In this document: in pieces, positions 6,447 through 33,331 of the stretch
How the letters are laid out: each line of letters opens with the position of its first letter
Position numbering within the stretch: position 1 is the first letter of the stretch
Assembly (NCBI GenBank): GCA_028821125.1
Contig: JAPPHD010000158.1
Location: forward strand, 1-42,301
Direction: 5' to 3'
DNA length: 42,301 bases
DNA from: Gammaproteobacteria bacterium
GTDB taxonomy: Bacteria; Pseudomonadota; Gammaproteobacteria; Pseudomonadales; Azotimanducaceae
Notes under the pieces: generated by a model
What the model was told of the DNA's origin: nothing
The model's database searches: none
Seen by the model: only the letters and a program-made list of their open reading frames with translations
Translations under genes and position numbers: made by a program

Positions 6447-9274
6447 GCCTTTTCGAAACCGACTATGGCACGCCCGCCTCCGCGGCGGCGGAGACGGTTG
6501 CGCTGACCATCGACGGCATGCCGGTATCGGTGCCGGCCGGCACGTCCATCATGCGGGCGGCGGCGACCGCGGGCATCCCGGTACCGAAACTCTGCGCCAC
6601 CGACAGCCTGGAGGCCTTCGGCTCCTGCCGGCTCTGCCTGGTGGAGATCGAGGGCCGGCGCGGCATGCCGGCGGCCTGCACCGAGCCGGTGCGGGAGGGC
6701 ATGTCGGTGCGCACCCAGACCGACGCCCTGGCCAGAATCCGGCGCGGCGTGATGGAACTGTACATCTCCGACCATCCGCTGGACTGCCTCACCTGCCCCG
6801 CCAATGGCGACTGCGAACTCGAGGACATGGCAGGCGCCGTGGGCCTGCGCGAGGTGCGCTACGCCAACGGCAAGGAGCACGCGAACCACCTGGATGCGCC
6901 GAAGGACGAGTCCAACCCCTATTTCACGTTCGACCCGTCCAAGTGCATCGTCTGCTCCCGCTGCGTGCGCGCCTGCGACGAGATCCAGGGCACCCTGGCG
7001 CTGACCATCGACGGGCGCGCCTTCGACTCGGTGGTGAAGACCGGCGCGGAGGATTTCTTCTCCTCGGAGTGCGTCTCCTGCGGCGCCTGCGTGGAAGCCT
7101 GCCCCACCGCCACGCTCATGGACAAGTCGGTGATCGAGCACGGCGTGCCGGACCGGGTGGTGAAGACCACCTGCGCCTACTGCGGCGTCGGCTGCTCCTT
7201 CAAGGCGGAGGTAAAAGGCGACCGGGTGGTGCGCATGACGCCCGACAAGGACGGCAAGGCCAACCACGGCCACTCCTGCGTGAAGGGGCGCTATGCGTGG
7301 GGTTACGCCAATCACGGCGACCGGATACTCGAGCCCATGGTGCGCGACCGCATCACCGATCCCTGGCGGGTTGTGTCCTGGGAGGAGGCCATCGACGAGG
7401 CGGCTTCGCGCCTGCAGGCGGTACAGGAGAAATACGGCAACCCGTCGATCGGCGGCATCACCTCGTCGCGCTGCACCAACGAGGAGGTCTGGCTGATTCA
7501 AAAGATGGTGCGCACCGCGTTCGGCAACAACAATGTCGATACCTGCGCGCGGGTCTGCCACTCGCCCACCGGCTACGGCCTGAAGCAGACCTTCGGCACT
7601 TCGGCGGGCACGCAGAATTTCGACTCGGTGGCCCAGGCCGACGTCATCGTGGTGATCGGCGCCAATCCCACCGACGGGCACCCGGTGTTCGCCTCCATGA
7701 TGAAGCGGCGGCTGCGCGAGGGCGCGAAGCTCATCGTCGCCGACCCGCGGCGCATCGACCTGGTGCGAACGCCCCACATCGAGGCGGAACATCACCTGCC
7801 GCTGCTGCCGGGCACGAACGTGCCGTTGATGAACGCATTCGCGCACGTGGTCGTCACCGAAGGGCTGCTCGACCGGGAATTCGTCGACGACCGTTGTGAC
7901 GCGGAGTCGTTCCAGGAGTGGCTCGCCTTCGCCGCCCGGGATGAAAACTCGCCGGAACGCATCGCCTCGGTCACGGGCGTGGCGGCTGAAGACATCCGCG
8001 CGGCCGCGCGCCTCTACGCCACCGCACCGAACGGCGCGATCTATTACGGATTGGGGGTCACGGAACACAGCCAGGGCTCCACCATGGTCATGGCCATGGC
8101 GAACCTGGCGATGGCCACCGGCAACATCGGCCGGCCGGGCGTGGGCGTCAACCCGCTGCGCGGGCAGAACAACGTGCAGGGCTCCTGCGACATGGGTTCT
8201 TTCCCGCACGAATGGCCCGGTTACCGGCACATCACGAACGACAGCGTGCGCGCCTCTTTCGAGCGCGCCTGGAATGTCGGCCTGTCCGGCAAACCGGGGT
8301 TCCGCATCCCGAACATGCTCGACGAAGCCTGCGCCGGGGGGTTCAAGGGCATCTACATCCAGGGCGAGGACATCGCCCAGTCAGACCCGAATACCCAGCA
8401 TGTGGAGGCAGCCCTCGGCGCCATGGAGTGCGTCATCGTCCAGGACCTGTTCCTGAACGAGACGGCCAAGTTCGCCCACGTCTTCTTCCCGGGCACCTCG
8501 TTCCTGGAGAAGGACGGCACCTTCATCAATGCCGAGCGGCGCATCAACCGGGTACGGCCCGTCATGCAGCCGAAGACCGGCATGCACGAATGGGAAGTGA
8601 CCCAGGCGCTGGCCCGGAAGCTCGGGTACCCCATGGAATACGGTTCGACCAGCGAGATCATGGACGAGATCGCCACCCTCACGCCGACCTTCGCCGGCGT
8701 TTCCTTCGCGATGCTCGACCGCGAAGGCAGCGTGCAGTGGCCCTGCAACGAGGCCGCCCCGCTAGGCACGCCGATCATGCACCGGGAGGAGTTCGTGCGC
8801 GGCAAGGGCCTGTTCGTACTCACCGACTACCAGCCCACCGACGAGAAGGCCAACCGCAAGTACCCGCTGCTGCTGACCACCGGCCGCATCCTCACCCAGT
8901 ACAACGTCGGCGCCCAGACCCGCCGCACCGACAACATCGAGTGGCTGAACGAAGACCGGCTGGAAATCCATCCGGCGGATGCGGAGTTGCGCGGCATCCG
9001 CACCGACGACTGGGTCTCCGTGACCAGCAGGATGGGCGAAATAACCCTGCGCGCCGACGTGACCGAGCGCGTGGCGGCGGGTGTGGTCTACACGACCTTC
9101 CACCACCCCTCCACGGGTACCAACGTCGTCACCACCGAGTTGAGCGACTGGGCCACCAACTGCCCGGAATACAAGGTCACCGCCGTGGAGGTCCGGCCCG
9201 CCAATCACCGTTCCCGCTGGCAGGAAGAGCACCTGAGCCGGGCAAGCGAACAGGTCGGCCTGCTGCCGGCCTGA
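6443..9274 (+). CDS. fdsA: NAD-dependent formate dehydrogenase alpha subunit (Mo-bis-MGD, iron-sulfur)
   Basis: A 943-residue catalytic subunit. Domains in order: [2Fe-2S] ferredoxin (C51, C62, C65, C79); NuoG-type His-Cys motif (H111, C115, C118, C124); two [4Fe-4S] sites (C168-C178 and C210-C220); the molybdopterin oxidoreductase [4Fe-4S] site (C244, C247, C251, C279); then the Mo domain with active-site C372-H373 in ARVCHSPTGYG; and a C-terminal molydopterin-dinucleotide domain. It oxidises formate to CO2. The catalytic position is cysteine, not selenocysteine, which matters because the window encodes a selenoprotein elsewhere. FdsA proteins are oxygen-tolerant and cytoplasmic. The start overlaps fdsB by four bases. 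Confidence 0.96.
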   Translation: MSLFETDYGTPASAAAETVALTIDGMPVSVPAGTSIMRAAATAGIPVPKLCATDSLEAFGSCRLCLVEIEGRRGMPAACTEPVREGMSVRTQTDALARIRRGVMELYISDHPLDCLTCPANGDCELEDMAGAVGLREVRYANGKEHANHLDAPKDESNPYFTFDPSKCIVCSRCVRACDEIQGTLALTIDGRAFDSVVKTGAEDFFSSECVSCGACVEACPTATLMDKSVIEHGVPDRVVKTTCAYCGVGCSFKAEVKGDRVVRMTPDKDGKANHGHSCVKGRYAWGYANHGDRILEPMVRDRITDPWRVVSWEEAIDEAASRLQAVQEKYGNPSIGGITSSRCTNEEVWLIQKMVRTAFGNNNVDTCARVCHSPTGYGLKQTFGTSAGTQNFDSVAQADVIVVIGANPTDGHPVFASMMKRRLREGAKLIVADPRRIDLVRTPHIEAEHHLPLLPGTNVPLMNAFAHVVVTEGLLDREFVDDRCDAESFQEWLAFAARDENSPERIASVTGVAAEDIRAAARLYATAPNGAIYYGLGVTEHSQGSTMVMAMANLAMATGNIGRPGVGVNPLRGQNNVQGSCDMGSFPHEWPGYRHITNDSVRASFERAWNVGLSGKPGFRIPNMLDEACAGGFKGIYIQGEDIAQSDPNTQHVEAALGAMECVIVQDLFLNETAKFAHVFFPGTSFLEKDGTFINAERRINRVRPVMQPKTGMHEWEVTQALARKLGYPMEYGSTSEIMDEIATLTPTFAGVSFAMLDREGSVQWPCNEAAPLGTPIMHREEFVRGKGLFVLTDYQPTDEKANRKYPLLLTTGRILTQYNVGAQTRRTDNIEWLNEDRLEIHPADAELRGIRTDDWVSVTSRMGEITLRADVTERVAAGVVYTTFHHPSTGTNVVTTELSDWATNCPEYKVTAVEVRPANHRSRWQEEHLSRASEQVGLLPA

Positions 9275-18554: not shown

Positions 18555-18989
18555 ATGTCCGAATACATTCCGCCCACGCTCGACTGGGTTCGCGACCAGG
18601 TGGAACTCTGGGAGAAGAGCGGCGGCACCGAAGGCACCACGCTGCTGGATACCGGTTTGCCCTGCATTCTGGTCATCCACCGTGGCAACAGGACCGGCGC
18701 GATCCGGAAGATTCCGCTGATGCGCGTCAAGGACGGCGACAGCTACGTGCTGGTCGGCTCGTTCGGCGGCCGGCCGAAGCACCCGGTTTGGATCTACAAC
18801 CTGCGGGCCGACCCGAACGTCGAGATCCGGGACGAGACCGAGGTTCACGCGATGCGGGTGCGCGAAGTCGACGATCAGGCGGAACGGGAGCGGGTCTGGG
18901 AGCTTGCGGTGGCGGCCTACGCGCCTTACGAGGAATACCGCGGCAACACCACGCGCAAGTTTGCGATTTTCATTGCCGATCCTGTCTGA
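18555..18989 (+). CDS. Deazaflavin (F420)-dependent nitroreductase (Ddn) family protein
   Basis: A 144-residue split-barrel protein of the Ddn/TIGR00026 family. Typical blocks are HRGNRTGAIRKIPLMRV, YVLVGSFGGRPKHPVWIYNL, then ADPNVEI and the C-terminal P-x-FxIF-like end (KFAIFIADPV). Family members bind F420 or flavins and reduce quinones or nitro compounds; proteobacterial members may use FMN instead. An AAAGGA lies seven bases before the ATG. The next gene begins 14 bases after its stop, so it probably forms an operon with the thioredoxin-fused protein and the selenoprotein. The 208-base gap upstream is partly coding-like (see findings). Confidence 0.8.
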   Translation: MSEYIPPTLDWVRDQVELWEKSGGTEGTTLLDTGLPCILVIHRGNRTGAIRKIPLMRVKDGDSYVLVGSFGGRPKHPVWIYNLRADPNVEIRDETEVHAMRVREVDDQAERERVWELAVAAYAPYEEYRGNTTRKFAIFIADPV

Positions 18990-19003: not shown

Positions 19004-20581
19004 ATGACCCAACCGCCTGCCTTTCTGCTTGAGGATGGTCAGGGGGAGCCGCATGCCTTCCCCGGTTCGAAGCCGGCGTTCGTCTGCTTCGTCAAGGAAG
19101 ACTGCCCCACCTGCAACGATGTCATGCCGCTCATCGAGGCGGCCTGGGGCGGATTGCGCGAAAGCGTGGACTTTTTCGTCTGCGGGCAGACCGAGACGGG
19201 AAACCGCGCCTTGGCGGAGAAGCACGGCCTGACCGTGCCCCTGCTGGACGATTCCTCGCTCAAGGTGTCCTTCGCCTGGGATATCGAAATCGTGCCCACG
19301 CTCGTGGTGGCCGACCCCAACGGCAGCCCGCGTCATCGTTTCATGGGTTTCGAGCGGGAGGAATGGCGGCAGGCGCTGGACGATCTGGCGGAGACGTCCG
19401 GCGCGCCGCAATTAGAGATCGACTGGCCGGCTTTTCCGGCGCTGCGCCCGGGATGCGGTTCGCGCTCGGCGGACCCCACCATTGCCGCGCGCCTGCAGGC
19501 GGAGGCTGAGAACAGCCCCCTGCGCGCCCGGCGCATCGACATCGCAGCGCACGACGACGAATTCGAATTCATGTTCGACCAGGGGTTCAGCGACGGCATG
19601 CCCCTCATCCCGCCCACGCCCGAGCGGGTGATGCGCATGTTGGGCGGGACGACCCGCGATCCACATGAAGTGATCGCTACGGTTCCGCCAAACATGGGCG
19701 AGGCCACGGTGGAAAAAGTGGCCATCAACTCGGTCATGGCCGGCTGCAAACCCGAGTACCTGCCCGTGGTGCTGACGGCGCTCGAAGCCGTCTGCACGGA
19801 CGAATTCAACATTCACGGTGTGATGGCGACGACCATGGGCGCCAGCCCCGTCATGGTGGTCAACGGCCCCATCCGCCACCGGCTCGGCATGAACATGAAG
19901 CTCGGCGCGCTCGGCCAGGGCAACCGGGCGAACGCCACCATCGGCAGGGCGCTGCGCCTGGCGATCCGCAACATCGGCGGTGCCAGGCCCGGCGGCACGG
20001 AACGGTCGACGCTGGGCAATCCGATGAAGTTCAGCATGTGCTTCGCGGAATGGGAGGAGCGCAGCCCCTGGACGCCGCTGCATGTCGAGCGCGGGTTCGA
20101 ACCGGAAGATTCGGTCGTGACGGTCTACGCAATGACCAGCGGGCCGGTGTTGACGGTCGACCAGGATTCGCGCACCGGGCCGCAACTCGCGGGCAGCCTG
20201 GGCCTGGGCATCGAGGGCATGCTGCATCCCAGGGCGCGCCTGTGGGGCGAGACGCTGCTGGTGATTGCCCCCGAGCATGTCGATAAACTGGCTGGAGACG
20301 GTTACGGCAAGGCCGAGATTCGCGCGCGCATCCAGGAAGTCGCCGCCCGCCCCATGCGGGAACTGGTGGAAGACGACCGGTCCGCCATGGGCATCAAGCG
20401 CGCCGCGGCCGAGCAGATGGAAGACGAAGCGCTGGACCGGAAGCTGCCGAAGTTCCGAAGCGATGCGGATATTCATATCGTCGTGGCGGGGTCCGAGGCG
20501 GGCAGTTTCTCGGCCGCCTTCCACGGCTGGCTGATGGGCGAGACCGGTTCCATCCCGGTCTCACGGAAGGTTTTGTCGTGA
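19004..20581 (+). CDS. Thioredoxin-domain protein fused to a large domain of unknown function
   Basis: A 525-residue cytoplasmic protein without a signal peptide. Residues about 1-130 look like thioredoxin: CFVKEDCPTCNDV (C34-P-T-C37), then IVPTLVVADP with the cis-proline. The remaining about 370 residues (from about 180) form a domain I do not recognise, with conserved-looking GFSDGMPLIPPTPERV, GVMATTMGASPVMVVNGP, GALGQGNRANATIGRALRL and GMLHPRARLWGE. It lies between a Ddn-type protein and a UGSC selenoprotein, pointing to a shared redox process: the thioredoxin domain could reduce the selenoprotein's Sec/Cys centre. That link is inferred. All codons are sense; no Sec in this protein. Confidence 0.7.
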   Translation: MTQPPAFLLEDGQGEPHAFPGSKPAFVCFVKEDCPTCNDVMPLIEAAWGGLRESVDFFVCGQTETGNRALAEKHGLTVPLLDDSSLKVSFAWDIEIVPTLVVADPNGSPRHRFMGFEREEWRQALDDLAETSGAPQLEIDWPAFPALRPGCGSRSADPTIAARLQAEAENSPLRARRIDIAAHDDEFEFMFDQGFSDGMPLIPPTPERVMRMLGGTTRDPHEVIATVPPNMGEATVEKVAINSVMAGCKPEYLPVVLTALEAVCTDEFNIHGVMATTMGASPVMVVNGPIRHRLGMNMKLGALGQGNRANATIGRALRLAIRNIGGARPGGTERSTLGNPMKFSMCFAEWEERSPWTPLHVERGFEPEDSVVTVYAMTSGPVLTVDQDSRTGPQLAGSLGLGIEGMLHPRARLWGETLLVIAPEHVDKLAGDGYGKAEIRARIQEVAARPMRELVEDDRSAMGIKRAAAEQMEDEALDRKLPKFRSDADIHIVVAGSEAGSFSAAFHGWLMGETGSIPVSRKVLS

Positions 20582-20658
20582 ACGGCACCAGGCGGCGCTC
20601 TCGAGCGGCACGCTGAATGCGAAGAGCCGTTTGAATCAGGAAACCAGAGGAGGAAAAA

Positions 20659-21183
20659 GTGGTAACCATTCTGGACCCCACCGACGAACGCGTACCGGTG
20701 GAACGTCAGGTAACGCCGCGCCCGGATACGGTATCCGGCAACGTCGCGCTGCTCGACATCTCCAAGCCGCGCGGCAACGTGCTGCTCGACCGGCTGGAGG
20801 CCCTGTTGCAGGAACGCCTGCCGGGCATATCCATCAACCGCTACGCCAAGCCGACGTTCGCGAAACCGGCGCCGGACGCACTGCGGGCGGATATCGCCTC
20901 AAGCAACGACTTCGTGATCGAGGCGCTGGCTGACTGAGGTTCCTGTACCACGTGCAGTTTGCATGACACGGTATGGTTCGAGATTCAGGGCAAGCCCGCG
21001 GTTTCGATCGCATCGACTGAGTTCGTCGATGCCGCGGCCACCCAGGCCGAAGCGCTCGGCATGAAGGATGCGCGCGCGGTGTTCGTCGGGCACCCCATTC
21101 AGGGCGCGACCGATGAGGAGATGCGCAGCAAGGCGGATGAAGTTGTCGATCGTGTGGTGGCTGCGCTTTCCGACGCCAACTAG
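20659..21183 (+). CDS. UGSC-family selenoprotein (in-frame UGA = Sec93)
   Basis: Read through TGA 20935-20937 the frame is continuous for 174 residues. The junction reads EALAD-U-GSCTTCSLHDT, the signature that gives the UGSC family its name; cysteine homologues have CGSC. The N-terminal half has MVTILDPTDERVP and LLDISKPRGN; the C-terminal half has STEFVDAAATQAEALG and VGHPIQGATDEEM, as in the family. Cysteines at 96 and 99 sit next to Sec93. A hairpin follows the UGA. The GTG start at 20659 has a strong AGAGGAGG site. Standard gene calling splits it into 92- and 74-residue pieces. It is 77 bases after the thioredoxin-fused gene. The biochemical reaction is unknown. Confidence 0.88.
20947..20972 (+). 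promoter_or_regulatory. Bacterial SECIS-like stem-loop
   Basis: After the UGA, CGTGCA (20951-20956) pairs with TGCATG (20960-20965; one G-U pair) around the loop GTT. ACC (20947-20949) and GGT (20970-20972) can extend the stem across an asymmetric bulge. The apical loop carries the G-U expected for SelB recognition and lies about 20 bases after the UGA, as in known bacterial SECIS elements. Folding was done by eye. Confidence 0.65.
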
Positions 21184-21275: not shown

Positions 21276-24200
21276 TCAATCGCCGCGTTCTGGTGCGGTT
21301 GACAGGTTCGTCAGATGCCCGGTACGGCTCTCAAGTAGGCTCATCACCCACAAGGATTGATCGGAAGCGACGTTCAGGCGCCACTTGCCACTGCCGTCAC
21401 CCAGGCGCCCGATAGTCGACTCGCTGCCCGATTCAAGCTGCTGAGACGACAGGATCCGTGTGCGTCGGGCCGCCACCTCCAGGCTGACCTCGCCGTAGGT
21501 TACGCCGCGGTCGTCCACGCCAGTGATCGTCACGCTTGCATCTTCCGTGGTGGCGTTGGCCAGGAGCAGGCGGCTCACCTGGTTGGGATTGCTGCCCGGA
21601 TTAAACATCGGCAATTCGTATCTTTGGTCCTCCATCTCAGCGGCTACATCGTGCATGCTGGTCAGAAAACCGTCCTCGTGGCGGATGTATGCAAGTACGT
21701 CGAGTTCAATGTCGCTCTCGAGTTCCAGCCTCCAATCCCCGGTGCCTGCCCCAATGCCTTGCAGCCCCTTCCCTGCGTTACCCATCTCCAAATCGTTCGA
21801 GTTGAACTGCACCGCCGCACCGCCAGGCACCGTCAATGAGTCGGGGTATCCGGGGCCGGTGTCATCATAGGCAAGGATATGCACGGTCGCCTCGTCGGAA
21901 CCACGGTTGACCACGCGGGCGAATCCCTGACGCCCCAATGCGTCCGCCGCAGAGGGGAAGTAGGGGATATGGTGTGTTGTTCCATTTTCATCGATTACCT
22001 GGTTTGCCGGCATGGAGGACAGGTTCGTCACATGTCCGGTGGGGCTCCGGAGCAGATTCGCGACAGCCACAGGCGCATCCGAGGAAACAGTCAGCCGCCA
22101 CTTCCCGCGGCCATCGCCCAACCCCCCATCCAGTTCCTGGCCGGACTCAAGTTCCTGCGCCGTGATCGTGCGTGATGTCCCACCTGCAAGCGCCAAGCGA
22201 ATCGTGCCTGCCCGATTGCCGTCGTCGTCTATGCCGGTTATTTCGATGTCCGCTTCCGTATCGCCTTCGTTGAGAATCCGCAGTTGGCTGACCTGGTCGG
22301 TATTGCTGGCTGGGTTGAAGATCGGAACGCGCCAGGTGCCGTCCGGCCCCTGTGCGACCAGGTCGTGCATGCTGGTAAGGAAACCGTCCGCCGTGCGGAT
22401 GTATGAGAGCGCCTGGATGTCGTTTGACCAGACTCGCAGACGCCAGTTGTTCGGCCCAGCTCCTGTCCCGCGGCTCAACCCTTTGCCGAAGTTGCCGTTC
22501 TCAAGGTCGTTCGAATTGAAATGGAGCGTTTGCCCGCGGCGAATCGACAGGGTGGTCGGCGAAATTGCGCCGTCGGGCCTGATCGCTTCGATATGTACTG
22601 CGTTTCTACCGCCGCGGTTGACGACGCGCATGAATCCCTCGCGTACGCCGTCGCCGGCCGCTGGGAACAAGGGTGCCATATGCGAAGGCCCCGCCCGGTC
22701 GACGATGAGCCCCACCGCCTGGGAGGTCCTCGCGTTAACCCAGCGGGGGCGCTTGTACGGCAACGAAACCCCAGGCGGCAGTTCGCGGGTGCCTCCGTAC
22801 AACTCGATGATAAAGACCTCATGCGGCTCCTGCCGATTGTCGTTCAGCAGCCGGATGAACGTGCTGGATTCGGTTGTTCCGGCAGGTAGGGCGATGACCC
22901 GGCAACCTTCGCGAAAGTCGAAGCATGCGCCGGTCGTGTCGAAATCGGCGTCGCTCGCCGTGGACTTGGCATCCACCACCGATCGAAATCCTCCGACGTT
23001 CTCGCCTAGCACGCCCCATGTCAGCTTTACCCGGTCCGTGGCCGGTTCGGTCAGGCGCACCACTGCCTCCGCGTCGTCCCCTTCCTTCGCCGACGTATCC
23101 ATCGCCAGCGCCACGGCACGGTAGACCGTAACACCCGCCTGACGCAGCCTCGGAACATACGCGTGCAGCGAGTCTGCACCCAGCGGATTGTCGTACAGGT
23201 AGAGTGTGCGAAGTGCCCCTAGCTGGGTGGCGTCTGCAAGGACGGATATGTCCGCAATCTGGTTATTGCCCAGGTTCAAGCTACCCAGCCGGCGCAGGCG
23301 GGCAAGCGGCGTGACGTCGCTCACGTAGTTGTCGGAGAGATCGATTTCAATCAATTCTCCCAGATGTGCTAGGGGTGTAATGTCGGCAATCGCGTTCCCA
23401 CCAAGACTCAATCGCTGCAGCCGGGACAGCTTCGACAGGGGTCCGATGTCACTGATCGCGTTGCCGTCCAGCCACAGATGGGTCAACGAGGCTATTTCGC
23501 CCAGGGGTACGATGTTCTCGATCAGGTTGCTGCGCAGGCTCAGCTCGGTCAGCGCGATCTCGCTCAACGGAGAAACGTCCTTGATCCGATTGCCGTCGAG
23601 GTACAGCCTGGTCAGTGACAGGTCCGAAAGGGGTGAGAGTTCCGAAATCCGGTTGTCTCTCAGGTCCAGCACCACCAGGGCATGCAGGGCCCGGAGCGGC
23701 TCAAGATCGGAGATATCGTTGCCGCTCAGGTCAAGGTTGCCGCACCTCCTCAATGACTGGAGGGCCGAGAGGTTGGAGATCTTCCCATTGTTCGCAAGTC
23801 CCAGGATCGTCATCGAGGTCAAGCCGCTCAGGGGAGACAGGTCGGATACAGATGCGCCGTTCAAAGTCAGCCACGACAGTCCGATAAGGCCTTGGATCGG
23901 CGAGAGGTCCGACAGCGGATTGCCGTCCAGCACGAGAAGCCACAGGCTGGACTTGTGTTCGAGGCCGGCGAGATTGGAAAGGCTATTGCCGGGCAACCTG
24001 AGCTGTCGGAGCTTTGTCATTGCCGACAGCGGCGTCAGATCAATGACTCGGTTGCAGGACAGTTCGAGTTCGCGCAGTTCAACCAGGCCCGAGATGGGTG
24101 AGATGTCGGTGATGTTGCCGCGCCGGGCACAGCCGTCAATCCAGTGACCACCCGTCAGCTTGAGGTGCCGCAATCCCGCAAGCCCGCCTACGGGCGCAAG

Positions 24201-26615
24201 GTCCTCGACCGCGGCGAATGTCAGATCCAGTGTTCTGAGCGTTTTGAGGCCGCGAAGCGGCTCCAGGTCGCTGCCGCGCCAGTGCGTCATGTCCAGAGAC
24301 CTGAGAGCGGGCAGGTGTCCCAGGGCGGACAGGTTGGAGGCCTTCAGCCCGGGAAGCTGCAGTGACAACAGGCCCGTCGCAAATTCCAACCCGGTAAGAT
24401 CGTCAACACTATTGGCGACGAGTTCGGTCAGGCCTGCCATGTCCTCCATCGAGAGGTGGTCGTCCGGCTCTTTTCCCAGCCCCTGCAGGACCGCGCTCCG
24501 GAGCCGCCCGTCGGGAATGGCGAACTCGCCGTCGTCGTCGATGATGGTTCCTGCTGCGGTCCCCGCATCCGTGGATACTACGGGACCGTCTGGTGCGCGG
24601 GGTGTGCCGGCCGCGAGGGCCACGCGGAGCCTGTCGGGTGGTTCGGCAACCGCATCGTCGAGCGTGACGACCTCGATCCAGGCGACTTCCTCGCCGGCCG
24701 GAATCGACAAGGCGCCGCTTCTCGCATCGAAGTCGATACCGTCCACCGCGGTGTCTGTTGACACCCTGTAGTTCACATGGATGTCGACCGGAAAGGTCGA
24801 CGAAAGGCTGACCGGAAAGCGCAACGCCTGCCCCTCGGTCGCCTCGGCATCCGCAATCGAGACCGTCGGCCCCACGGTGACCTGCACCCTGTCGCAGGGG
24901 ACAGCAGCCAAGGCATCATCCACGCATGCGAAGTAGTAATACGCTCCCGGGTCGGCCGGAGCGGTCAGGTCCAGGGTGCGGGAAACGGCGCTTGATGCAT
25001 CCAGCGCGAGCACGTCCACCCGTCCGGCTTCTTCGTCGTCGCTCGAGAATTCCGCGTCCGAGGATCGGTACGCGACAAGCGTTGTCGCGGCGGCGTCCAC
25101 CCGGCCACGATTGGTGATGTCGGCCATTAACCTGAAACTTTCCGACCTGTCCAGCGCGGTCTTGGTGACAGTCGACGAGACCGACAGGTTTGCGTGAGGG
25201 TCCCGGTAACCCGCAATGACCGATCGCATTTCGTTCAGCGTGCGCCGTGCGTCCGCCGGGCCGTCGACCGTGTAGGTCTCCACCTCGCCAGGGACGCCCA
25301 GTGCATCGCCCATGTACTCATGGTCGGGATTCGAGAAACGCGGCAGCCAGTGGCATTGAAACTGCAACTCGGAGCATTGATCGTTACGAGCCATGACAGT
25401 GATCCAGCCCGACGCAGCGGGCGCGTCGGGCTCGAAAGCCGCCTGGTTCACATAGCCGTGGTTGTACGGGGCGAGTTTCGATGTCTTGTGCGCGTCCAGG
25501 TAACGGTCGTGAAACAGGCCGAAGTTGTGTCCGATCTCGTGGATGAAGACGTTGCTTGCACAGGCGTATTTCGACGCGCTGATGAAGGAAATTTCTGCTT
25601 CGTCCGCGGAGATGGGTATGTGGGCAAGGCCGGTGCAGGGATACCCGCTTGCGAGAAAGTGCACGAGGTCTGCACCCACCTTGTCGCGGAGTTCCAGTAC
25701 CTCCTCGCGTACGTTCCGCTCGTCCAAGCCCGATACGGTTCCGGTGAGCGAATGCCACACGTTCAGGCCGCCGTCGTCCTCGGTGTCCACCTGCTGCATG
25801 TGCGGAATACTCAGCCGGACTCGGGCGCCGCTGTCTGCGAATACCTTGTTGGCGTGCGCGGCAAGGTGGTCGATGGTTGCGACCAGGTGTTCACGGCTAC
25901 CCGCCTCGTCTTCGGCTTCCGAAGACCAGACGACCAACAGGTCGACGATTGTCTCTTCGTCGTCGCTCACTGAGGCGGCCCTGCTCCCGCCTCCGCCCTT
26001 GGCAGCACTCTTCTGGTCAACACGCAAGGCGTCCGGTTCGTCGAATTCGATGAAATCCGGGTGAACCTGACGAATCTGAACCAGACCTCCTTTGCCGATG
26101 GAGCGGATGGTGTAGATTTCCCGTGCGGTGTGCACGGAGCCGACAACGATCTCATCGTTTACGACCAGCGTCGCCGTGCCCAGGGGTACGCCCTCAAGGT
26201 CTCCGGAGAGCGAATAGCCGGCGGTTGTGGGGCCGAACATTGGAGAGACGAGCGAAAAGGAGGCGTTGCCGAACAGGTTCAGTTCGGTTGCAGCATCGGA
26301 GTCCGATTCTTTCAGAACTCGGAGGTGGTCAAGGTCCAGTTTTGCCGAGCGAATCCGAAGCGTTGCGGGACGAGAGGTAGGGTCATTGACAGCGCTGATC
26401 GACGACCTCGAATAGTCCTTCGCCGACGGTTCTCCGGTGCGGGGGGCGACTTCGAATTCGGGCGACGAGGAAAAAAGAGGCGCGGGCTCGTGAGTGAACG
26501 CACTCAATGGGGCTGCGGCAATCACCACGCCGAATGCAATTGCGGCGGCCCAGGTTACCCGAGACGTTTCGTTCCGCCTCGACTTGGAATCGGTATTGAC
26601 GTCTTTTCGCGACAT
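21276..26615 (-). CDS. Secreted metzincin protease with Calx-beta, internalin-like LRR and C-terminal repeat domains
   Basis: A 1779-residue modular protein. The ATG at 26615 gives a signal peptide (basic start, hydrophobic AAAIAFGVVIAAAPLSAF); an upstream ATG at 26711 lies in group II intron sequence. A reprolysin-like (M12B) protease domain has HEIGHNFGLFHD at about 359 and a methionine-turn ITVMARND after it. A Calx-beta domain (about 575-690) follows. Some 18 LRRs of 21-22 residues (L..L.L..N.ISDLSPLS..., about 730-1160) resemble internalins. A second Calx-beta-like part (about 1160-1290) and two 230-residue units ending in TGH.TNLS (1290-1779) complete it. It is likely secreted or cell-surface, and fits adhesion or host contact. 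No sortase or membrane anchor is visible. Confidence 0.85.
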   Translation of the reverse strand: MSRKDVNTDSKSRRNETSRVTWAAAIAFGVVIAAAPLSAFTHEPAPLFSSSPEFEVAPRTGEPSAKDYSRSSISAVNDPTSRPATLRIRSAKLDLDHLRVLKESDSDAATELNLFGNASFSLVSPMFGPTTAGYSLSGDLEGVPLGTATLVVNDEIVVGSVHTAREIYTIRSIGKGGLVQIRQVHPDFIEFDEPDALRVDQKSAAKGGGGSRAASVSDDEETIVDLLVVWSSEAEDEAGSREHLVATIDHLAAHANKVFADSGARVRLSIPHMQQVDTEDDGGLNVWHSLTGTVSGLDERNVREEVLELRDKVGADLVHFLASGYPCTGLAHIPISADEAEISFISASKYACASNVFIHEIGHNFGLFHDRYLDAHKTSKLAPYNHGYVNQAAFEPDAPAASGWITVMARNDQCSELQFQCHWLPRFSNPDHEYMGDALGVPGEVETYTVDGPADARRTLNEMRSVIAGYRDPHANLSVSSTVTKTALDRSESFRLMADITNRGRVDAAATTLVAYRSSDAEFSSDDEEAGRVDVLALDASSAVSRTLDLTAPADPGAYYYFACVDDALAAVPCDRVQVTVGPTVSIADAEATEGQALRFPVSLSSTFPVDIHVNYRVSTDTAVDGIDFDARSGALSIPAGEEVAWIEVVTLDDAVAEPPDRLRVALAAGTPRAPDGPVVSTDAGTAAGTIIDDDGEFAIPDGRLRSAVLQGLGKEPDDHLSMEDMAGLTELVANSVDDLTGLEFATGLLSLQLPGLKASNLSALGHLPALRSLDMTHWRGSDLEPLRGLKTLRTLDLTFAAVEDLAPVGGLAGLRHLKLTGGHWIDGCARRGNITDISPISGLVELRELELSCNRVIDLTPLSAMTKLRQLRLPGNSLSNLAGLEHKSSLWLLVLDGNPLSDLSPIQGLIGLSWLTLNGASVSDLSPLSGLTSMTILGLANNGKISNLSALQSLRRCGNLDLSGNDISDLEPLRALHALVVLDLRDNRISELSPLSDLSLTRLYLDGNRIKDVSPLSEIALTELSLRSNLIENIVPLGEIASLTHLWLDGNAISDIGPLSKLSRLQRLSLGGNAIADITPLAHLGELIEIDLSDNYVSDVTPLARLRRLGSLNLGNNQIADISVLADATQLGALRTLYLYDNPLGADSLHAYVPRLRQAGVTVYRAVALAMDTSAKEGDDAEAVVRLTEPATDRVKLTWGVLGENVGGFRSVVDAKSTASDADFDTTGACFDFREGCRVIALPAGTTESSTFIRLLNDNRQEPHEVFIIELYGGTRELPPGVSLPYKRPRWVNARTSQAVGLIVDRAGPSHMAPLFPAAGDGVREGFMRVVNRGGRNAVHIEAIRPDGAISPTTLSIRRGQTLHFNSNDLENGNFGKGLSRGTGAGPNNWRLRVWSNDIQALSYIRTADGFLTSMHDLVAQGPDGTWRVPIFNPASNTDQVSQLRILNEGDTEADIEITGIDDDGNRAGTIRLALAGGTSRTITAQELESGQELDGGLGDGRGKWRLTVSSDAPVAVANLLRSPTGHVTNLSSMPANQVIDENGTTHHIPYFPSAADALGRQGFARVVNRGSDEATVHILAYDDTGPGYPDSLTVPGGAAVQFNSNDLEMGNAGKGLQGIGAGTGDWRLELESDIELDVLAYIRHEDGFLTSMHDVAAEMEDQRYELPMFNPGSNPNQVSRLLLANATTEDASVTITGVDDRGVTYGEVSLEVAARRTRILSSQQLESGSESTIGRLGDGSGKWRLNVASDQSLWVMSLLESRTGHLTNLSTAPERGD

Positions 26616-26666
26616 ATGCGTTGTGTCCGCCAAAGCTAGACGAGGTACTCTAGCCGGGATTATTCG

Positions 26667-27335
26667 GTGCGCCGTGCAAAGGTGCACAACCTTAGTGGGT
26701 GCGAACCCCACCCGGCAAGAGTCGTTCCAGCCGGTAGCAATCGGAACGGCCGTGGAGGTAACGAACCGGTCGAAGCTTCTGGTGTAGAGGGTCCGTAAGG
26801 GACTTGGCGAGCGTACAGGCCGTCACGTGCAGTGAACGCTGAGCAGGCCTCGAAAAGGGCAATGCGGAAGCCGACCCGCCTGAATTACGGGGAAGGCCGC
26901 CGTCGTTGGGGAAGCGAACGACGCATGCACCCAACGGTTCCGCCGGGGTAGTGGCGACGGCATGTACGAAAGAGGGGTTGTGTGCAACACGGGAAGCCCC
27001 TTGGGGCGGCTGGCAAGCGGCGTCGGCCGACGGTGGCGCTGTGAGGCGCAGAACCGGCCCCTTGGGGTGGCGGAGAGGGTCGTAGTACCGAGGAAGCCAG
27101 GTAATGCCGGTGAAGGAAAGGACCCTTGGTCTGGGACTTGGTCTGGGAATAGTGCTGGCAGGAGCGAGCGCGAGGCGATTGACGAATGAGTCTGGTAACG
27201 CCGAAAACAGTCGAGAAGCTCTGTAAGGCACTGCATGCGAAAGCGAAGGAAGCAGTCGGGTTCCGGTTTTATCTCGTCTAGGACAAGGTCAACGGCGGGG
27301 ACGTTTTGAGCCATGCCTATGCGTTGAGTCGCGCG
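26667..27335 (+). mobile_element. Group II intron, 5' fragment
   Basis: The 5' end is the GTGCG at 26667. The following 520 bases have the style of bacterial group II intron domains I-IV (GTGGGTGCGAACCCCACCC hairpin, CCGGTAGCAATCGGAACGG, GAGGGTCCGTAAGGG) and end in a maturase start at 27186. Sequence breaks off around 27335 inside the maturase, and no domain V/VI hairpin is found. It is therefore a dead 5' fragment of a once about 2.5-kb element. It sits 51 bases upstream of the protease start, so it has replaced or displaced that gene's natural promoter region. Confidence 0.8.
27186..27335 (+). pseudogene. ltrA: Group II intron reverse transcriptase/maturase, 5' remnant
   Basis: From ATG 27186 the frame reads MSLVTPKTVEKLCKALHAKA then EAVGFRFYLV, a TAG at 27279-27281, and DKVNGGDVLSHAYALSRA. 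Intact maturases have FRFY.LYDKV..DVL.HAY..ARAN, so the TAG replaces the tyrosine codon. Similarity ends at about 27335; some 400 codons of RT and maturase domains are missing. Both nonsense mutation and truncation inactivate it. Confidence 0.85.
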
Positions 27336-28655: not shown

Positions 28656-30317
28656 TTAATCAGTTTGCGCCGAACCCGCCGTTGCGGTTACCGCACCGGA
28701 ATCCAGGGCAAGCGACCTCAGCAGCCCGTACATCATGAAAAGCAGCACGATGCTCACCGGCAGCGCCGCGACGATCGATGCCGTCTGCAGCGCCTGCAGG
28801 CCGCCGGCCAGCAGGAGCACCGCGGCCACCAGCCCCTGACCCAGCCCCCAGACCACGCGGAACCGCTGCGGCGGATGATCGTCGCCCATGCTCAGCATGG
28901 TGGTGATCACCAGCGTGCCCGAGTCCGAGGAGGTGATGAACCAGGTTGCCAGCAGGAAGGTGGCAAGCGCTGAAATGAGCCAGACGAGCCAGGACAGGTG
29001 GCTCATCGAGGCGATGGTGCCGTACAGGGCGGCTTCGAGGTTGCCGCCGCGCACCAGGTCCATGATGCCCGCCGTGCCGGCGCCGCCGTCCGCCCAAAGC
29101 TCCAGGTGGATGGCGTTGCCGCCCAGGAGGGCGATCCAGAACACGCCCAGGCCCGTCGGTACGAACATGGCCCCGGCGACAAATTCCCGGAGTTTGCGAC
29201 CCCTGGAAATCCGGGCGATGAACATGCCGACGAAGGGGGCCCAGCTTATCCACCAGCCCCAGTAGAAGACCGTCCAGTTGCTCTGCCAGGTCTCGGTGGC
29301 GTCGTCGGCCGCGGTCCAGAACCCCATTGGAATCACCGCCCACAGGTAGTCGCCGGCGGTGGTGGCGAAAAATCCCAGCAACCATTGGGTCGGGCCGAAA
29401 AACAGGAAGAACCCGAGCAGCACGACGGTGAGGTAGACATTCCATTCGGAGATGATGCGGATGCCCCGACCGACGCCGGAGACCGCCGACAGGGTGGCCA
29501 CGGTTGAGATCGCCGCGATCAGGCCGATCTGCGTGACGATGCCCGGGTCGAGACCGAACAGGGTATCCAGCCCGGCGCCCATCTGCTTGACGCCCAGCCC
29601 CAGGGACGTGGCGACGCCGAAGACGGTGCCGAATACCGCCAGCAGATCGACGAGATGGCCCGGAGTGCCGTAAATCCGATCGCCGATCACGGGATAGAGG
29701 GCGGAGCGGAGCGTCAGCGGCAGCTTCTTGCGGAAGCCGAACCACGCGAGGCAGAGGCCGACGATCACGTACACCGACCAGGCGTGAATCCCCCAGTGCA
29801 TGTAGGTGACGCGCACCGCGTGCTCCGCCCGCTGCACGTCGAGCAGCAGGGCGCCGGCGCGGTCTGCGTGCGGGTTGTTGGGGTAGCCGCCTGGGGCGCT
29901 GTTGTCGAGGTAATAGAGCGGTTCGGCGATGGAGAAGAACAGGAGCCCGATACCGAGGCCCGCCGAGAACAGCATTGCCAGCCACGAAAAGGTGCTGAAC
30001 TCCGGCCGCGCATCGTCGTCGCCAAGCCGGTAGTTGCCGTAGCGGCTGCACATCAGGAACAGGGAGACGAACACCGCAACGCACACGGTCAGCACGTAGT
30101 ACCAGTCGAGCGTACTCTCTATCCAGGCCCGGACCTCGGAATACAGGACGCCCGCCTGGTCGAGAAAGGCGACGGAAAGGACCACGAACACCAGTACCAT
30201 GCCTTTGGCCGCCAGCGCCATGCCGGGATGCAGACCCTTCCAGACCCCGGTTGCGGCGACGGATAGCGCCGCGGCAGTGTCCGGTGCCCCTGTTCCGATT
30301 TCCTTCCCCTCAGTCAT
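28656..30317 (-). CDS. BCCT-family betaine/carnitine/choline transporter
   Basis: A 553-residue secondary transporter with about twelve transmembrane helices. The family signature is intact: SNWTVFYWGWWISWAPFVGM followed by FIARISRGRKLREF. FSAGLGIGLLFFSIAEPLYY and MHWGIHAWSVYVIVGL are the other conserved blocks, and the length fits BCCT carriers. It imports quaternary ammonium compounds, driven by sodium or protons. GGAAG lies five bases before the ATG at 30317; the frame is open further upstream but without family similarity. As the last gene of the demethylation operon it probably delivers the substrate, most likely glycine betaine. Confidence 0.92.
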   Translation of the reverse strand: MTEGKEIGTGAPDTAAALSVAATGVWKGLHPGMALAAKGMVLVFVVLSVAFLDQAGVLYSEVRAWIESTLDWYYVLTVCVAVFVSLFLMCSRYGNYRLGDDDARPEFSTFSWLAMLFSAGLGIGLLFFSIAEPLYYLDNSAPGGYPNNPHADRAGALLLDVQRAEHAVRVTYMHWGIHAWSVYVIVGLCLAWFGFRKKLPLTLRSALYPVIGDRIYGTPGHLVDLLAVFGTVFGVATSLGLGVKQMGAGLDTLFGLDPGIVTQIGLIAAISTVATLSAVSGVGRGIRIISEWNVYLTVVLLGFFLFFGPTQWLLGFFATTAGDYLWAVIPMGFWTAADDATETWQSNWTVFYWGWWISWAPFVGMFIARISRGRKLREFVAGAMFVPTGLGVFWIALLGGNAIHLELWADGGAGTAGIMDLVRGGNLEAALYGTIASMSHLSWLVWLISALATFLLATWFITSSDSGTLVITTMLSMGDDHPPQRFRVVWGLGQGLVAAVLLLAGGLQALQTASIVAALPVSIVLLFMMYGLLRSLALDSGAVTATAGSAQTD

Positions 30318-30385
30318 GCGAGCTTCCCGGTCTGCGCTGCGCATCCATGTTCCGGGAATTCCGGCCGAGGGTCGAGTCCGCCCCG

Positions 30386-32416
30386 TCAGGCTCGCTTGCC
30401 GTGACGCCGGCGCCGCCGACGCGATGCCAGGGCGGTGACGTTCGCGCCCTGCGGGGTTTCGCCGCGGTGGGGGAGCGGGAACGCCGCTTGCAGGTTCACA
30501 AACGGGTCGCTGTTGTGCGGAATGGCCATGGCGTTGACGAAGTATTCCTGGAACTTCGGTTCCACCGCCGTCTCCACCCGCTCGATCCGTCTCACCACCG
30601 TCTCGATCTCTTCGCGGGAGGCGTTGTTCAGGAGCGCGATGCGCGCCCCGGTGCCGGCGGCATTGCCGGCCGGGCCGGCCGCCTCGAGCGGGCAGTCGGG
30701 AATGATGCCCAGCGCCATGGCGTACTTCACGTCGATGTGGCTGCCGAAGGCGCCCGCCAGGCGGATGCTGTCCACCGAATCGACGTCCAGCCGGTCCATG
30801 AGCAGTTTCACGCCGGCGTAGAGAGCAGCCTTCGCCAACTGAATCTGGCGCACGTCGTTCTGCGTGACGGAAATGACCGGGTCGCCCTGATGGAGCACGA
30901 ATGAGAACGTCCTCCCGTCGCGCACCAGGCGTTCGTTGCGGCCGGCCATCCCGTCTTCGATGACGCCGTCGCCGCTCAGAACCCCCGCCAGCAGCATTTC
31001 GACAACCGCTTCGATAATTCCGGAGCCGCAGATGCCGGTCACGATGCCGCCGGGCACCGACTCGGCGAAGCCCGGGTCGTCCGACCAGAGGTCCGACCCG
31101 ATGACCTTGATGCGGGTCTCGAGTGTGCGTGGATCGATGCGTACACGTTCGATGGCTCCGGGCGCCGCCCGCTGGCCGCAACTGATCTGGGCGCCTTCGA
31201 AAGCCGGGCCCGTGGGGCTCGAGCAGGCCAGCAGCCGGTGCCGGTTGCCCAGCACGATTTCCGCATTGGTGCCGATGTCCACGACGAGGTTGATCCCGTC
31301 CCGGTCATGCGGCTGTTCGGAGAGGATCACGCCAGCGGTATCGGCCCCAACGTGGCCGGCGATGCAGGGCAGCACGTAGGCCACGCCGCCGGGATTGGCG
31401 GCGATGTCGAGATCCCGCGCCGGCACGTACAAAGATGTGTCGACCGCCAGGGCAAAGGGCGCACCGCCGAGTTCCACCGGGCTCAGGCCCAGCAGGAGGT
31501 GGTGCATCACCGGGTTGCAGACGATCACGATGCTCAGGATGTCGTCGGCGCCGATGCCGGCGTCGGCACTCGTACGGTCGATGAGTTCGTTGATCGCACC
31601 CCGGACCGCCCGGGTCATCTCACTGCTGCCTTCCGGATGCATCATGACGTAGGAGACCCGGCTCATGAGGTCCTCGCCGAAACGGATCTGCGGATTCATC
31701 ATGCCGTTCGAACAGACCACTTCGCCGCTGGACAGGGCGCAGAGGTGGGCGGCGATGGTGGTCGAGCCGACATCGATGGCGAGCCCCCAGACCTCGTCCC
31801 GATATCCGGGCCACAGCGCGATGATTTCCCGGGCCCGGTGCACGGCCACCGTGACGGACCACTTGCCCTCCCGCAGCGCCGCCTGCAGGCCCGCGGTAAC
31901 CCGGGTGCCGCAGGACAGGCCGGTGAGATTCCACTGCTCTTCCAGAGCTTCCCGGAGGCGCGTGAGGTCGCTTCTGGAGTCATGGAGGAGCGCTTCGTCC
32001 ACTTCGACGTAGTAGAGCTGAACCACGGGGTCGAGCTCGATGGTCCGCCGGTCAGCCTCCTTGCGGACCACCTGGCGGTGCACCTGGCTCTCCGGCGGCA
32101 CATCGATGACGAGGTCGCCCTGGACGGTGGCGTGACAGCTCAGTCGCCGGCCCGGCGCCAGGGGCTTGCGCCTGGCGCCGTAGTCCCGCTCGGTGGCCGT
32201 GAACGGCGAGAGATGCTCTCTGCTGGAGACGATGCCGTGCTTCGGAAAGTCGCCCTCGCTGCACAGGACCTGGCAGCGCCCGCACAGGCCTCGGCCGCCG
32301 CAGATCGAGGCGATGTCGACACCGAGTTCCCGCGCCGCGTCCAGAACGGATGTACCGAACGGAAAGGTTCCCCGCCGGCCGGCAGGAGTGAATACGACTT
32401 TGGCGTTGGGTTGCAT
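30386..32416 (-). CDS. Corrinoid activation protein (RACo/RamA-type ASKHA ATPase, DUF4445)
   Basis: A 676-residue protein. An N-terminal [2Fe-2S] ferredoxin domain has C39, C45, C48 (CGGRGLCGRC) and C94. From about 210 an ASKHA ATPase fold follows: GLAIDVGSTTIAAHL, VVDIGTNAEIVLGN and LAGAFGSHIDVKYAMALG. Such proteins reduce inactive Co(II) of corrinoid methyltransfer proteins to Co(I) at the cost of ATP. The C-terminus ends in an arginine-rich tail (SRRRRRRHGKRA). The gene starts 12 bases after the methyltransferase stop and BCCT follows after 68 bases. The reductive-activation role is strongly supported by the family and the operon. Confidence 0.9.
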   Translation of the reverse strand: MQPNAKVVFTPAGRRGTFPFGTSVLDAARELGVDIASICGGRGLCGRCQVLCSEGDFPKHGIVSSREHLSPFTATERDYGARRKPLAPGRRLSCHATVQGDLVIDVPPESQVHRQVVRKEADRRTIELDPVVQLYYVEVDEALLHDSRSDLTRLREALEEQWNLTGLSCGTRVTAGLQAALREGKWSVTVAVHRAREIIALWPGYRDEVWGLAIDVGSTTIAAHLCALSSGEVVCSNGMMNPQIRFGEDLMSRVSYVMMHPEGSSEMTRAVRGAINELIDRTSADAGIGADDILSIVIVCNPVMHHLLLGLSPVELGGAPFALAVDTSLYVPARDLDIAANPGGVAYVLPCIAGHVGADTAGVILSEQPHDRDGINLVVDIGTNAEIVLGNRHRLLACSSPTGPAFEGAQISCGQRAAPGAIERVRIDPRTLETRIKVIGSDLWSDDPGFAESVPGGIVTGICGSGIIEAVVEMLLAGVLSGDGVIEDGMAGRNERLVRDGRTFSFVLHQGDPVISVTQNDVRQIQLAKAALYAGVKLLMDRLDVDSVDSIRLAGAFGSHIDVKYAMALGIIPDCPLEAAGPAGNAAGTGARIALLNNASREEIETVVRRIERVETAVEPKFQEYFVNAMAIPHNSDPFVNLQAAFPLPHRGETPQGANVTALASRRRRRRHGKRA

Positions 32417-32428
32417 GGCTCGCCGGGA

Positions 32429-33331
32429 TCAGGCCCGGCGGCGGCGCCCCCGTTCCCGTCGCCGCCCCCCGTTCGCAGCCTGTGGGGCAGGCTCTCGGTA
32501 TTGCCGGATCCAGCGTGAACAATCCGGATCGTTGCCCATCATCACGTCGGCGCCAAGCACGGCCTGCATGACTTCGGTGTGCAGCGGGTTGGTTATCGCC
32601 GACGTGAGGCCGGCGCCGATGGCCATGGTCAGGAAGGCGCTGTTGATGCCGCCGCGGTTCGGCAGGCCGAAACTCACGTTCGAGGCGCCGCAGGTGGTGT
32701 TCACCTTCAGTTCGTCGCGCAGGCGCCTGACGATTTGCATCACCTGGCGCCCGGCGCTGTTGATGGCCCCGATGGGCATCACCAGCGGGTCGACGATCAC
32801 GTCGCTTCTCGGGATGCCGTGGTCGGCGGCGCGCTCGACGATCTTCCTGGCAACCTCGAAGCGCACGTTCGGGTCTTCCGAGATGCCGGACTCGTCGTTG
32901 GAAATGGCGACGACGGCGGCACCGTGCTTGGCGACCAGGGGCAGCACCGACTCGAGCCGGTCTTCCTCGCCGGTCACCGAGTTTACGAGCGCCTTGCCCT
33001 GGTAGACGGCCAGGCCCGATGCCAGGGCCGCCACGATGGAGGAATCGATGGACAGGGGCACATCGGTGACCTGTTGGACCAGCCTGACGGCTTCGGCAAG
33101 GATCGCCGGCTCATCCGCAAGCGGAATGCCGGCGTTGACATCGAGCATGTGAGCACCGGCCTGCACCTGGGCGACGGCATCGGCCGTCACCCGGCTGTAG
33201 TCGCCAACCTTCATCTCGGCGGCCAGCACCTTGCGGCCGGTCGGGTTGATGCGCTCGCCGATGATTACGAAGGGCCGGTCGAAGCCGATTACGACCTCCC
33301 GGGTGGCGGAACTTACGATGGTGTCGGTCAT
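32429..33331 (-). CDS. Methyltetrahydrofolate:corrinoid methyltransferase
   Basis: A 300-residue pterin-binding TIM-barrel enzyme related to MeTr/AcsE and MtgA. FVIIGERINPTGRKVLAAEM is the typical opening, followed by AGAHMLDVNAGIPLADEP, PLSIDSS, VNSVTGEE and DVIVDPLVMPIG. It moves a methyl group between a corrinoid protein and THF. In a demethylating cluster it would work toward methyl-THF. The ATG at 33331 shares one base with the metF stop (TGATG). The last residues (GGRRRERGRRRRA) form an arginine-rich tail beyond the normal end of the barrel. Confidence 0.9.
   Translation of the reverse strand: MTDTIVSSATREVVIGFDRPFVIIGERINPTGRKVLAAEMKVGDYSRVTADAVAQVQAGAHMLDVNAGIPLADEPAILAEAVRLVQQVTDVPLSIDSSIVAALASGLAVYQGKALVNSVTGEEDRLESVLPLVAKHGAAVVAISNDESGISEDPNVRFEVARKIVERAADHGIPRSDVIVDPLVMPIGAINSAGRQVMQIVRRLRDELKVNTTCGASNVSFGLPNRGGINSAFLTMAIGAGLTSAITNPLHTEVMQAVLGADVMMGNDPDCSRWIRQYREPAPQAANGGRRRERGRRRRA

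Follow-up and report, generated by a model that had tools for sequence, protein, structure and literature searches.

Glycine reductase binds its substrate through protein B, to which the pyruvoyl subunit GrdE belongs. GrdB has the selenocysteine (Sec) motif UxxCxxC and PrdB is homologous to it, as stated in those sections of a 2026 review that were consulted, where the UGSC family of selenoproteins is listed apart from them, among the thioredoxin (Trx)-like folds, and is counted with the families of largely uncharacterised function (PMC13188914). According to an earlier note on the DNA considered here, the reaction of the family is not established. Since 2008, UGSC has ranked with the most abundant selenoproteins known from aquatic metagenomes, with 255 Sec forms in GOS, and a fusion of UGSC to a domain named 'Unknown_1' has been mentioned (PMC2398784, in the sections consulted). 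In the portions of this literature that were consulted, no relation to GrdB, no reaction and no constant partner is stated for UGSC beyond the 'Unknown_1' fusion (PMC2398784).

The window that we have analysed, i.e., the whole stretch of 42,301 nucleotides, contains a UGSC gene that is preceded by a longer gene, referred to below as the partner. The features of this region are as follows:

18555-18989, forward strand: F420H2-dependent quinone reductase-like gene, preceding the partner gene by 14 nt
19004-20581, forward strand: partner gene (525 aa), with a thioredoxin-like domain and a partner domain, 77 nt upstream of UGSC
19004-19408, forward strand: thioredoxin/ResA-like domain of the partner (residues 1-135), with CPTC at 19103-19114 and a TM-score to ResA of about 0.83 by target
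19571-20578, forward strand: partner domain (residues 190-525, 336 residues), a family with no Pfam, NCBIfam or solved-structure match
20646-20653, forward strand: ribosome-binding site AGAGGAGG, preceding the GTG at 20659
20659-21183, forward strand: UGSC-family selenoprotein gene, with GTG start and TAG stop (21181-21183), 174 aa, Sec at residue 93
20935-20937, forward strand: UGA codon read as selenocysteine, U93 of U93-x-x-C96-x-x-C99
20951-20965, forward strand: core hairpin of a predicted bacterial SECIS element, with a 6-bp stem and the loop GTT (20957-20959), 19 nt after the UGA

The earlier note had joined two pieces in the same frame through the TGA at 20935-20937 into one protein of 174 residues, with U-GSC-TTC at the junction and a very strong ribosome-binding site in front of it, and had assigned this protein to the UGSC family. 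Both parts of this reading are borne out. The read-through protein, with U93-G-S-C-T-T-C, conforms to the family motif [U/C]-G-S-C, matches PF24696 with 166.1 bits over residues 3-171 (cut-off 25), and also matches the NCBIfam equivalog NF041046 over its whole length with 164 bits (cut-off 125). Taken separately, the halves cover model positions 1-92 (with 61 bits) and 94-171 (with 84 bits) of PF24696, and the TGA thus occupies the sole column in between; the similarity does not stop at residue 92, as the match of the whole protein runs to residue 171. The openness of the frame alone is weak evidence, since by composition 81 open codons beyond a stop are expected in about 12% of cases. The window gene almost certainly encodes a genuine selenoprotein. 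Taken alone, it is a further representative of a selenoprotein family already described (PF24696/NF041046), from which the window protein shows no difference.

What is new is the unit to which this gene belongs, viz. a GrdB-like Sec domain, an unnamed and near-constant partner, and a built-in thioredoxin. Among 299 genomes of the phylum, four contain PF24696, and exactly these four were recovered again when a partner profile was searched independently. The partner adjoins UGSC or is fused to it both in the window and in each of the other 13 loci that the UGSC query yielded at first (L027-L032 and L034-L040), and it is present, adjacent or fused, in 10 of 10 plasmid records with UGSC. In a sample of Actinomycetota, UGSC was matched in 24 of 296 genomes; of the 34 matches over the cut-off 28 were returned with their locus, and the partner was observed in 27 of these, the exception being shortened by the contig end. 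A search of genome contigs starting from the window's partner confirmed 566 relatives, and the best 80 of these by closeness to the window were analysed. UGSC was present in 77 of these 80 loci, in 71 of them as the next gene downstream, on the same strand and no more than 300 nt away, and its Sec-site codon was TGA in 75 and TAG in one, with the contig ending first in one. The partner loci without UGSC are L085, whose contig stops 183 nt beyond the partner, L088, where a contig of 3.3 kb leaves 1.3 kb past the partner, and L101, with 6 kb of following sequence. As the 80 loci were ranked by closeness to the window, their high shares of Sec and of thioredoxin fusion describe this clade. Nine further partner regions from plasmids were considered (of 24 partner plasmid records, six besides the UGSC-positive ones, H12, H18 and H30-H33, were left out), and UGSC or a UGSC-like domain was adjacent or fused in eight of them, which include two (L167 and L168) with only a degenerate, weakly scoring fused UGSC domain; the ninth (L173) was without it. 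In Variovorax boronicumulans, UGSC and partner form one chain, and the 'Unknown_1' domain, as described in the consulted sections of PMC2398784, may be the partner domain of the window. It is thus very likely that UGSC and the partner form a functional unit, and we infer that together they are one enzyme.

At the Sec site, homologues have TGA in 82 and TGC or TGT in seven of 89 codon sites, the latter being the Cys homologues aligned at residue 93 that the earlier note had proposed to look for. These sites omit the eight duplicates L019-L026, and also L040, whose motif CACGSC escaped the motif rule, L070, where the contig ends first, and L072, which has TAG. In an alignment (A4) of 74 TGA-form members, comprising the window and 73 of the 77 UGSC-bearing loci (those complete, on the same strand and with exactly one TGA), C96 and C99 are invariant; because the rows were picked for having one TGA, the invariance of U93 in it is not independent evidence. 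Beyond the window's clade Cys99 is not kept, and the paralogues from the same genome as the window have Gly at this position.

In the genome of the window (5.28 Mb in 193 contigs), selA (484 bits), selB (386 bits) and a tRNA-Sec follow one another on contig C142, and selD is located on contig C33; all of these score over their cut-offs, and the tRNA-Sec has the anticodon UCA (ARAGORN). All four genes, selA, selB, selC and selD, for which the earlier note had suggested a search, are therefore present. The formate dehydrogenase of the window (6443-9274) was said to use cysteine, and it does, for it has no in-frame TGA and has TGC in VCHSPT, the Cys of which we take to be the active site. Across genomes, the Sec-site codon and the machinery also agree. 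A search for selA covered 41 genomes, 38 of them belonging to the 80 partner loci and three to other members of the phylum. It was found in 39, of which 38 have the TGA form and one the TAG form, and a Cys codon occupies the site in precisely the two genomes that lack it, G143 and G277. The UGSC gene of the selA-less G277 (L032, 7784-8307) is frame-broken with an extra TGA downstream, so that G143 is the only clean Cys case. Additionally, 16 of the 80 partner loci contain selA and selB as well (three of these loci are acidimicrobial by title, and the other 13 are alphaproteobacterial or fall among such loci in the closeness ranking), which suggests that UGSC is a main selenocysteine user there. 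Because selA and selB are within a few kilobases of it, UGSC may be the reason why selenocysteine has been kept in some Alphaproteobacteria and Acidimicrobiia. The TAG form is that of Candidatus Blastococcus massiliensis AP3 (L072, 7248-7250); the consulted part of PMC5330540 refers to UGSC-motif selenoproteins described before it from three Geodermatophilaceae genomes with CUA tRNA-Sec, and hence this form is already known.

The hairpin with a GU-containing loop that was noted about 20 bases after the UGA is present and conserved, but its energy in the window alone is unremarkable. All six stem pairs are found in 75 of 82 TGA sites, with mostly a GTN loop and a start 19 nt after the TGA. The sites without the full stem are L094, L098, L109, L113, L114 and the two paralogues of the window's own genome (L027 and L028), for which no convincing hairpin was observed. 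Ser100, whose codon makes up the end of the stem together with the loop, is encoded by AGT in all 77 TGA genes having Ser there, as compared with 122 of 1835 Ser codons in the partner genes (6.6%, with a few loci entering more than once) and 14 of 80 codons for Ser95 in these UGSC genes; the three Cys forms with Ser100 use TCC, TCG and AGC. The loci behind these hairpin and Ser100 counts are related and the counts are hence not independent, though, to judge by their titles, the loci come from several phyla. Taking all TGA sites together, the hairpin has an energy of -10.2 kcal/mol versus -7.2 kcal/mol in synonymous reshuffles, and on average across these sites 23% of the reshuffles fold as well. 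The window hairpin is ordinary (z of -0.45 and -0.95, with nine of 20 synonymous reshuffles equalling it), and, as a sequence-based prediction, it is convincing through conservation only.

The partner protein consists of two parts. Its N-terminal domain has a weak AhpC/TSA match, and its first 135 residues share the fold and the CPTC site of ResA/TlpA-type thioredoxin-like proteins, from which they differ in being fused to an unnamed domain of 336 residues. The model of the 525-residue protein has a mean pLDDT of 95.3, and the 50 PDB matches listed for it are thioredoxin-like proteins that cover about the N-terminal domain. For the partner domain alone, a profile search against solved structures revealed no relative (three hits, with E of 0.24 or worse). 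Among 74 partner proteins compared with Pfam-A and NCBIfam, the families matched are of the thioredoxin type, in keeping with the N-terminal domain. For six plasmid partners, Pfam yielded nothing beyond chance matches, apart from the fused UGSC domain, and the five of these compared with NCBIfam had no match over a cut-off. The possibility that the partner is a diverged GrdE or GrdB was also considered and rejected, as profile comparisons find no resemblance. A thioredoxin-type in-frame upstream extension is present on the partner in 74 of the 80 loci by a loose rule, which accepts CPTT in L061 and L063.

The AlphaFold2 model of UGSC (pLDDT 92.6, pTM 0.87) shows an alternating b-a-b-a-b-a-b-a-b-a order, in which Sec93 is predicted to open a helix after the third strand. 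Of the 1746 PDB matches of this model at E up to 10, 27 reach an E of 0.001 or better. Flavodoxin-like proteins, azoreductases, lumazine synthase and other alpha/beta proteins make up most of the 50 listed; the query TM-scores are 0.30-0.53, a weak similarity, and no thioredoxin is among these 50. A comparison by hhalign of UGSC with the unit's own thioredoxin domain gave a probability of 0.4. The predicted model, the listed PDB matches and the profile comparison together argue against a Trx fold for UGSC, and our finding predicts, to the extent that the model is right, that the Trx-like fold given for it in print is wrong.

A similarity of a different kind was observed between UGSC and GrdB. 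Four GrdB genes from a Chloroflexota-wide sample read UGTCTRC, UGTGTRS, UGSCNRC and UGSCNRC at their in-frame TGA; two of the four thus resemble the UGSC motif, and one (UGTGTRS) is without both motif cysteines. The hhalign comparison of UGSC with these four gave a probability of 93.5 (E 2.4e-7) over 82 columns, with U93 placed on U348 and a score of 54.8 versus 24.8 for the best of 200 column shuffles, and a more diverse UGSC set gave 96.2 (E 2.7e-9). When the seven motif columns were masked, the match dropped to a probability of 9.4 (E 0.0035), which indicates that much of the signal is the motif; the register was kept and the masked match (28.2 versus 23.9) was above all 200 shuffles. Against eight PrdB-like proteins the match was weaker (45.1, 24.6 and 57.1, depending on the set-up), and no similarity was found by hhalign between UGSC and GrdE or residues 1-332 of GrdB. 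PF07355 gave no match in the UGSC protein at E 0.1, and this model ends before the Sec site. Based upon these results, the UGSC domain is in all probability homologous to the Sec domain of GrdB. UGSC shares with GrdB (PF07355) and PrdB the same UxxCxxC Sec domain in register, with thioredoxin as the likely reductant, but it is without the remainder of GrdB. It also differs in that GrdE/PrdA (PF09338) is absent from the UGSC genomes examined and the partner is unrelated to GrdE. PF09338 was found in none of 28 chosen UGSC genomes, as against four of five GrdB control genomes; UGSC thus seemingly borrows no GrdE-type subunit, and the partner is the obvious candidate for binding the substrate.

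These observations point to an undescribed reducing enzyme that is related to glycine reductase. We propose that 19004-21183 encodes a two-gene, three-part reductase, in which UGSC would be a stand-alone relative of the GrdB/PrdB Sec domain and the other gene a partner dedicated to it, which in the window's clade carries its own thioredoxin domain. The partner domain would bind a small organic substrate, and Sec93 would attack this substrate or accept its leaving group. Cys96, together with Cys99 in the window's clade, could then resolve the product as a selenenylsulfide, and UGSC would be re-reduced by the CxxC of the fused thioredoxin domain or, in other lineages, by separate TrxA/TrxB. A trxB gene adjoins the unit in Roseovarius and in Arthrobacter (with trxA) and is two genes off in Variovorax SRS16. 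Both the direction in which electrons flow and the assignment of the reaction to reductive cleavage, of the kind performed by glycine and proline reductase, are inferred. The combination of a GrdB-like Sec domain, the partner and a thioredoxin reductant is, taken as a whole, the explanation that we favour with some confidence, and a thioredoxin-driven reduction of a small substrate is likewise rather probable. As slender clues to the substrate, the surroundings of the plasmid members contain CoA-transferases, CoA lyases, PEP-mutase-like enzymes and TRAP/TTT carboxylate transporters. In the ten representatives scanned, the neighbour clusters beyond the UGSC-partner pair indicated no common substrate, their conservation being insufficient.

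Three other explanations have to be weighed against this proposal. It could be held that the TGA is a true stop, which would make the UGSC sequence either a pseudogene or a pair of short genes, as standard translation terminates at 20937 and the window hairpin alone is no more stable than shuffles. However, both halves are conserved, the set of sel genes is complete, selA and the Sec-site codon agree across genomes, the same TGA is present in 75 of 80 partner loci, and Ser100 is AGT in 77 of 77 cases, which together make this explanation exceedingly improbable. A chance open frame or a pseudogene is rejected also because the two halves hit neighbouring positions of one model. Another explanation accepts the selenoprotein but regards UGSC as a thioredoxin-fold thiol oxidoreductase or peroxidase, with the partner as its protein substrate or as a redox-controlled protein. 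The UxxC motif and the thioredoxin fusion suit redox work generally, and in their consulted sections PMC2398784 and PMC13188914 both assign a Trx-like fold to UGSC. Against this, the AlphaFold2 model alternates b-a without a thioredoxin among the 50 of 1746 PDB matches listed, and UGSC does not resemble the unit's own thioredoxin domain in the above profile comparison; we consider this explanation distinctly unlikely.

The UGSC-partner scaffold might also be basically a non-redox enzyme, e.g., a carboxylic-acid lyase or hydratase, in which Sec or Cys serves as a nucleophile or metal ligand. Fused UGSC-partner proteins from plasmids of Vibrio europaeus (L167, 5335-7020) and Sporomusa termitida (L168, 5293-7017), each near genes for aconitase X and DUF126, have GDMGTS in place of the Sec/Cys site. 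With the loss of both redox residues, this part of the superfamily is not redox-active, and the scaffold can serve a non-redox purpose. The plasmid members amid CoA-transferases, CoA lyases and carboxylate transporters are in line with such a role, although one such region has the partner without UGSC. In contrast, C96 and C99 are invariant in the 74 TGA-form members, a thioredoxin-type extension is found in 74 of 80 partner loci, and trxB adjoins the unit or is near it in three plasmid loci, and a non-redox enzyme is on this evidence unlikely.

The reductase that we prefer may, tentatively, be placed more widely. UGSC-Trx-partner could add a third class to the GrdB-type selenol reductases, of which glycine and D-proline reductase are the other two; this class would have no pyruvoyl subunit, would be driven by a built-in thioredoxin and would reductively cleave a small organic acid or amine, with members in Pseudomonadota, Chloroflexota, Actinomycetota, Acidobacteria and, in a Cys form, haloarchaea. 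The interpretation of the earlier note, a UGSC selenoprotein, is supported, and to it are now added the near-constant upstream partner, the likeness to GrdB, and two further UGSC genes in the genome. With the partner, the built-in reductant and the tie to glycine reductase, what had been a gene of no assigned reaction becomes a defined complex, amenable to purification and assay.

The two further UGSC genes of the window's genome, on contigs C112 (L027, 7862-8395) and C28 (L028, 7830-8357), have one in-frame TGA each and the motif UGSCT[ST]G; their order is UGSC-partner and no thioredoxin is fused. Each of them seemingly also ends at a TGA, so that this codon would have two meanings within a single gene, Sec and stop. 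On contig C35 of the same genome, a PrdB/GrdB-like sequence (L122, about 1501-2100; PF07355 with 38 bits) has an in-frame TGA at UPVCHQ and is probably a fourth selenoprotein of this genome. In L177, a thioredoxin/peroxiredoxin-like sequence with CATC lies upstream of 1501, right before a GrdB gene reading UGSCNRC, which hints that such reductases travel with thioredoxin. A conjugative IncP plasmid of Acidovorax sp. T1 (L038, 7932-9491) also carries UGSC, with an in-frame TGA, and the partner.

As for the neighbours of the unit in the window, the F420H2-dependent quinone reductase-like gene is possibly in the same operon as the partner. It was rejected as a constant part, since a tblastn search of the examined loci hit only the window (L127) and a gene of L072 with 37% identity. 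Right after the UGSC gene, on the minus strand (21276-26711), is a gene for a protein of 1811 aa with reprolysin-like, Calx-beta and leucine-rich repeat regions. Also on the minus strand (28656-34341), a BCCT-type transporter, a RACo-like corrinoid activator, a pterin-binding enzyme and MTHFR are encoded, which probably serve one-carbon use of the methylamine/betaine type.
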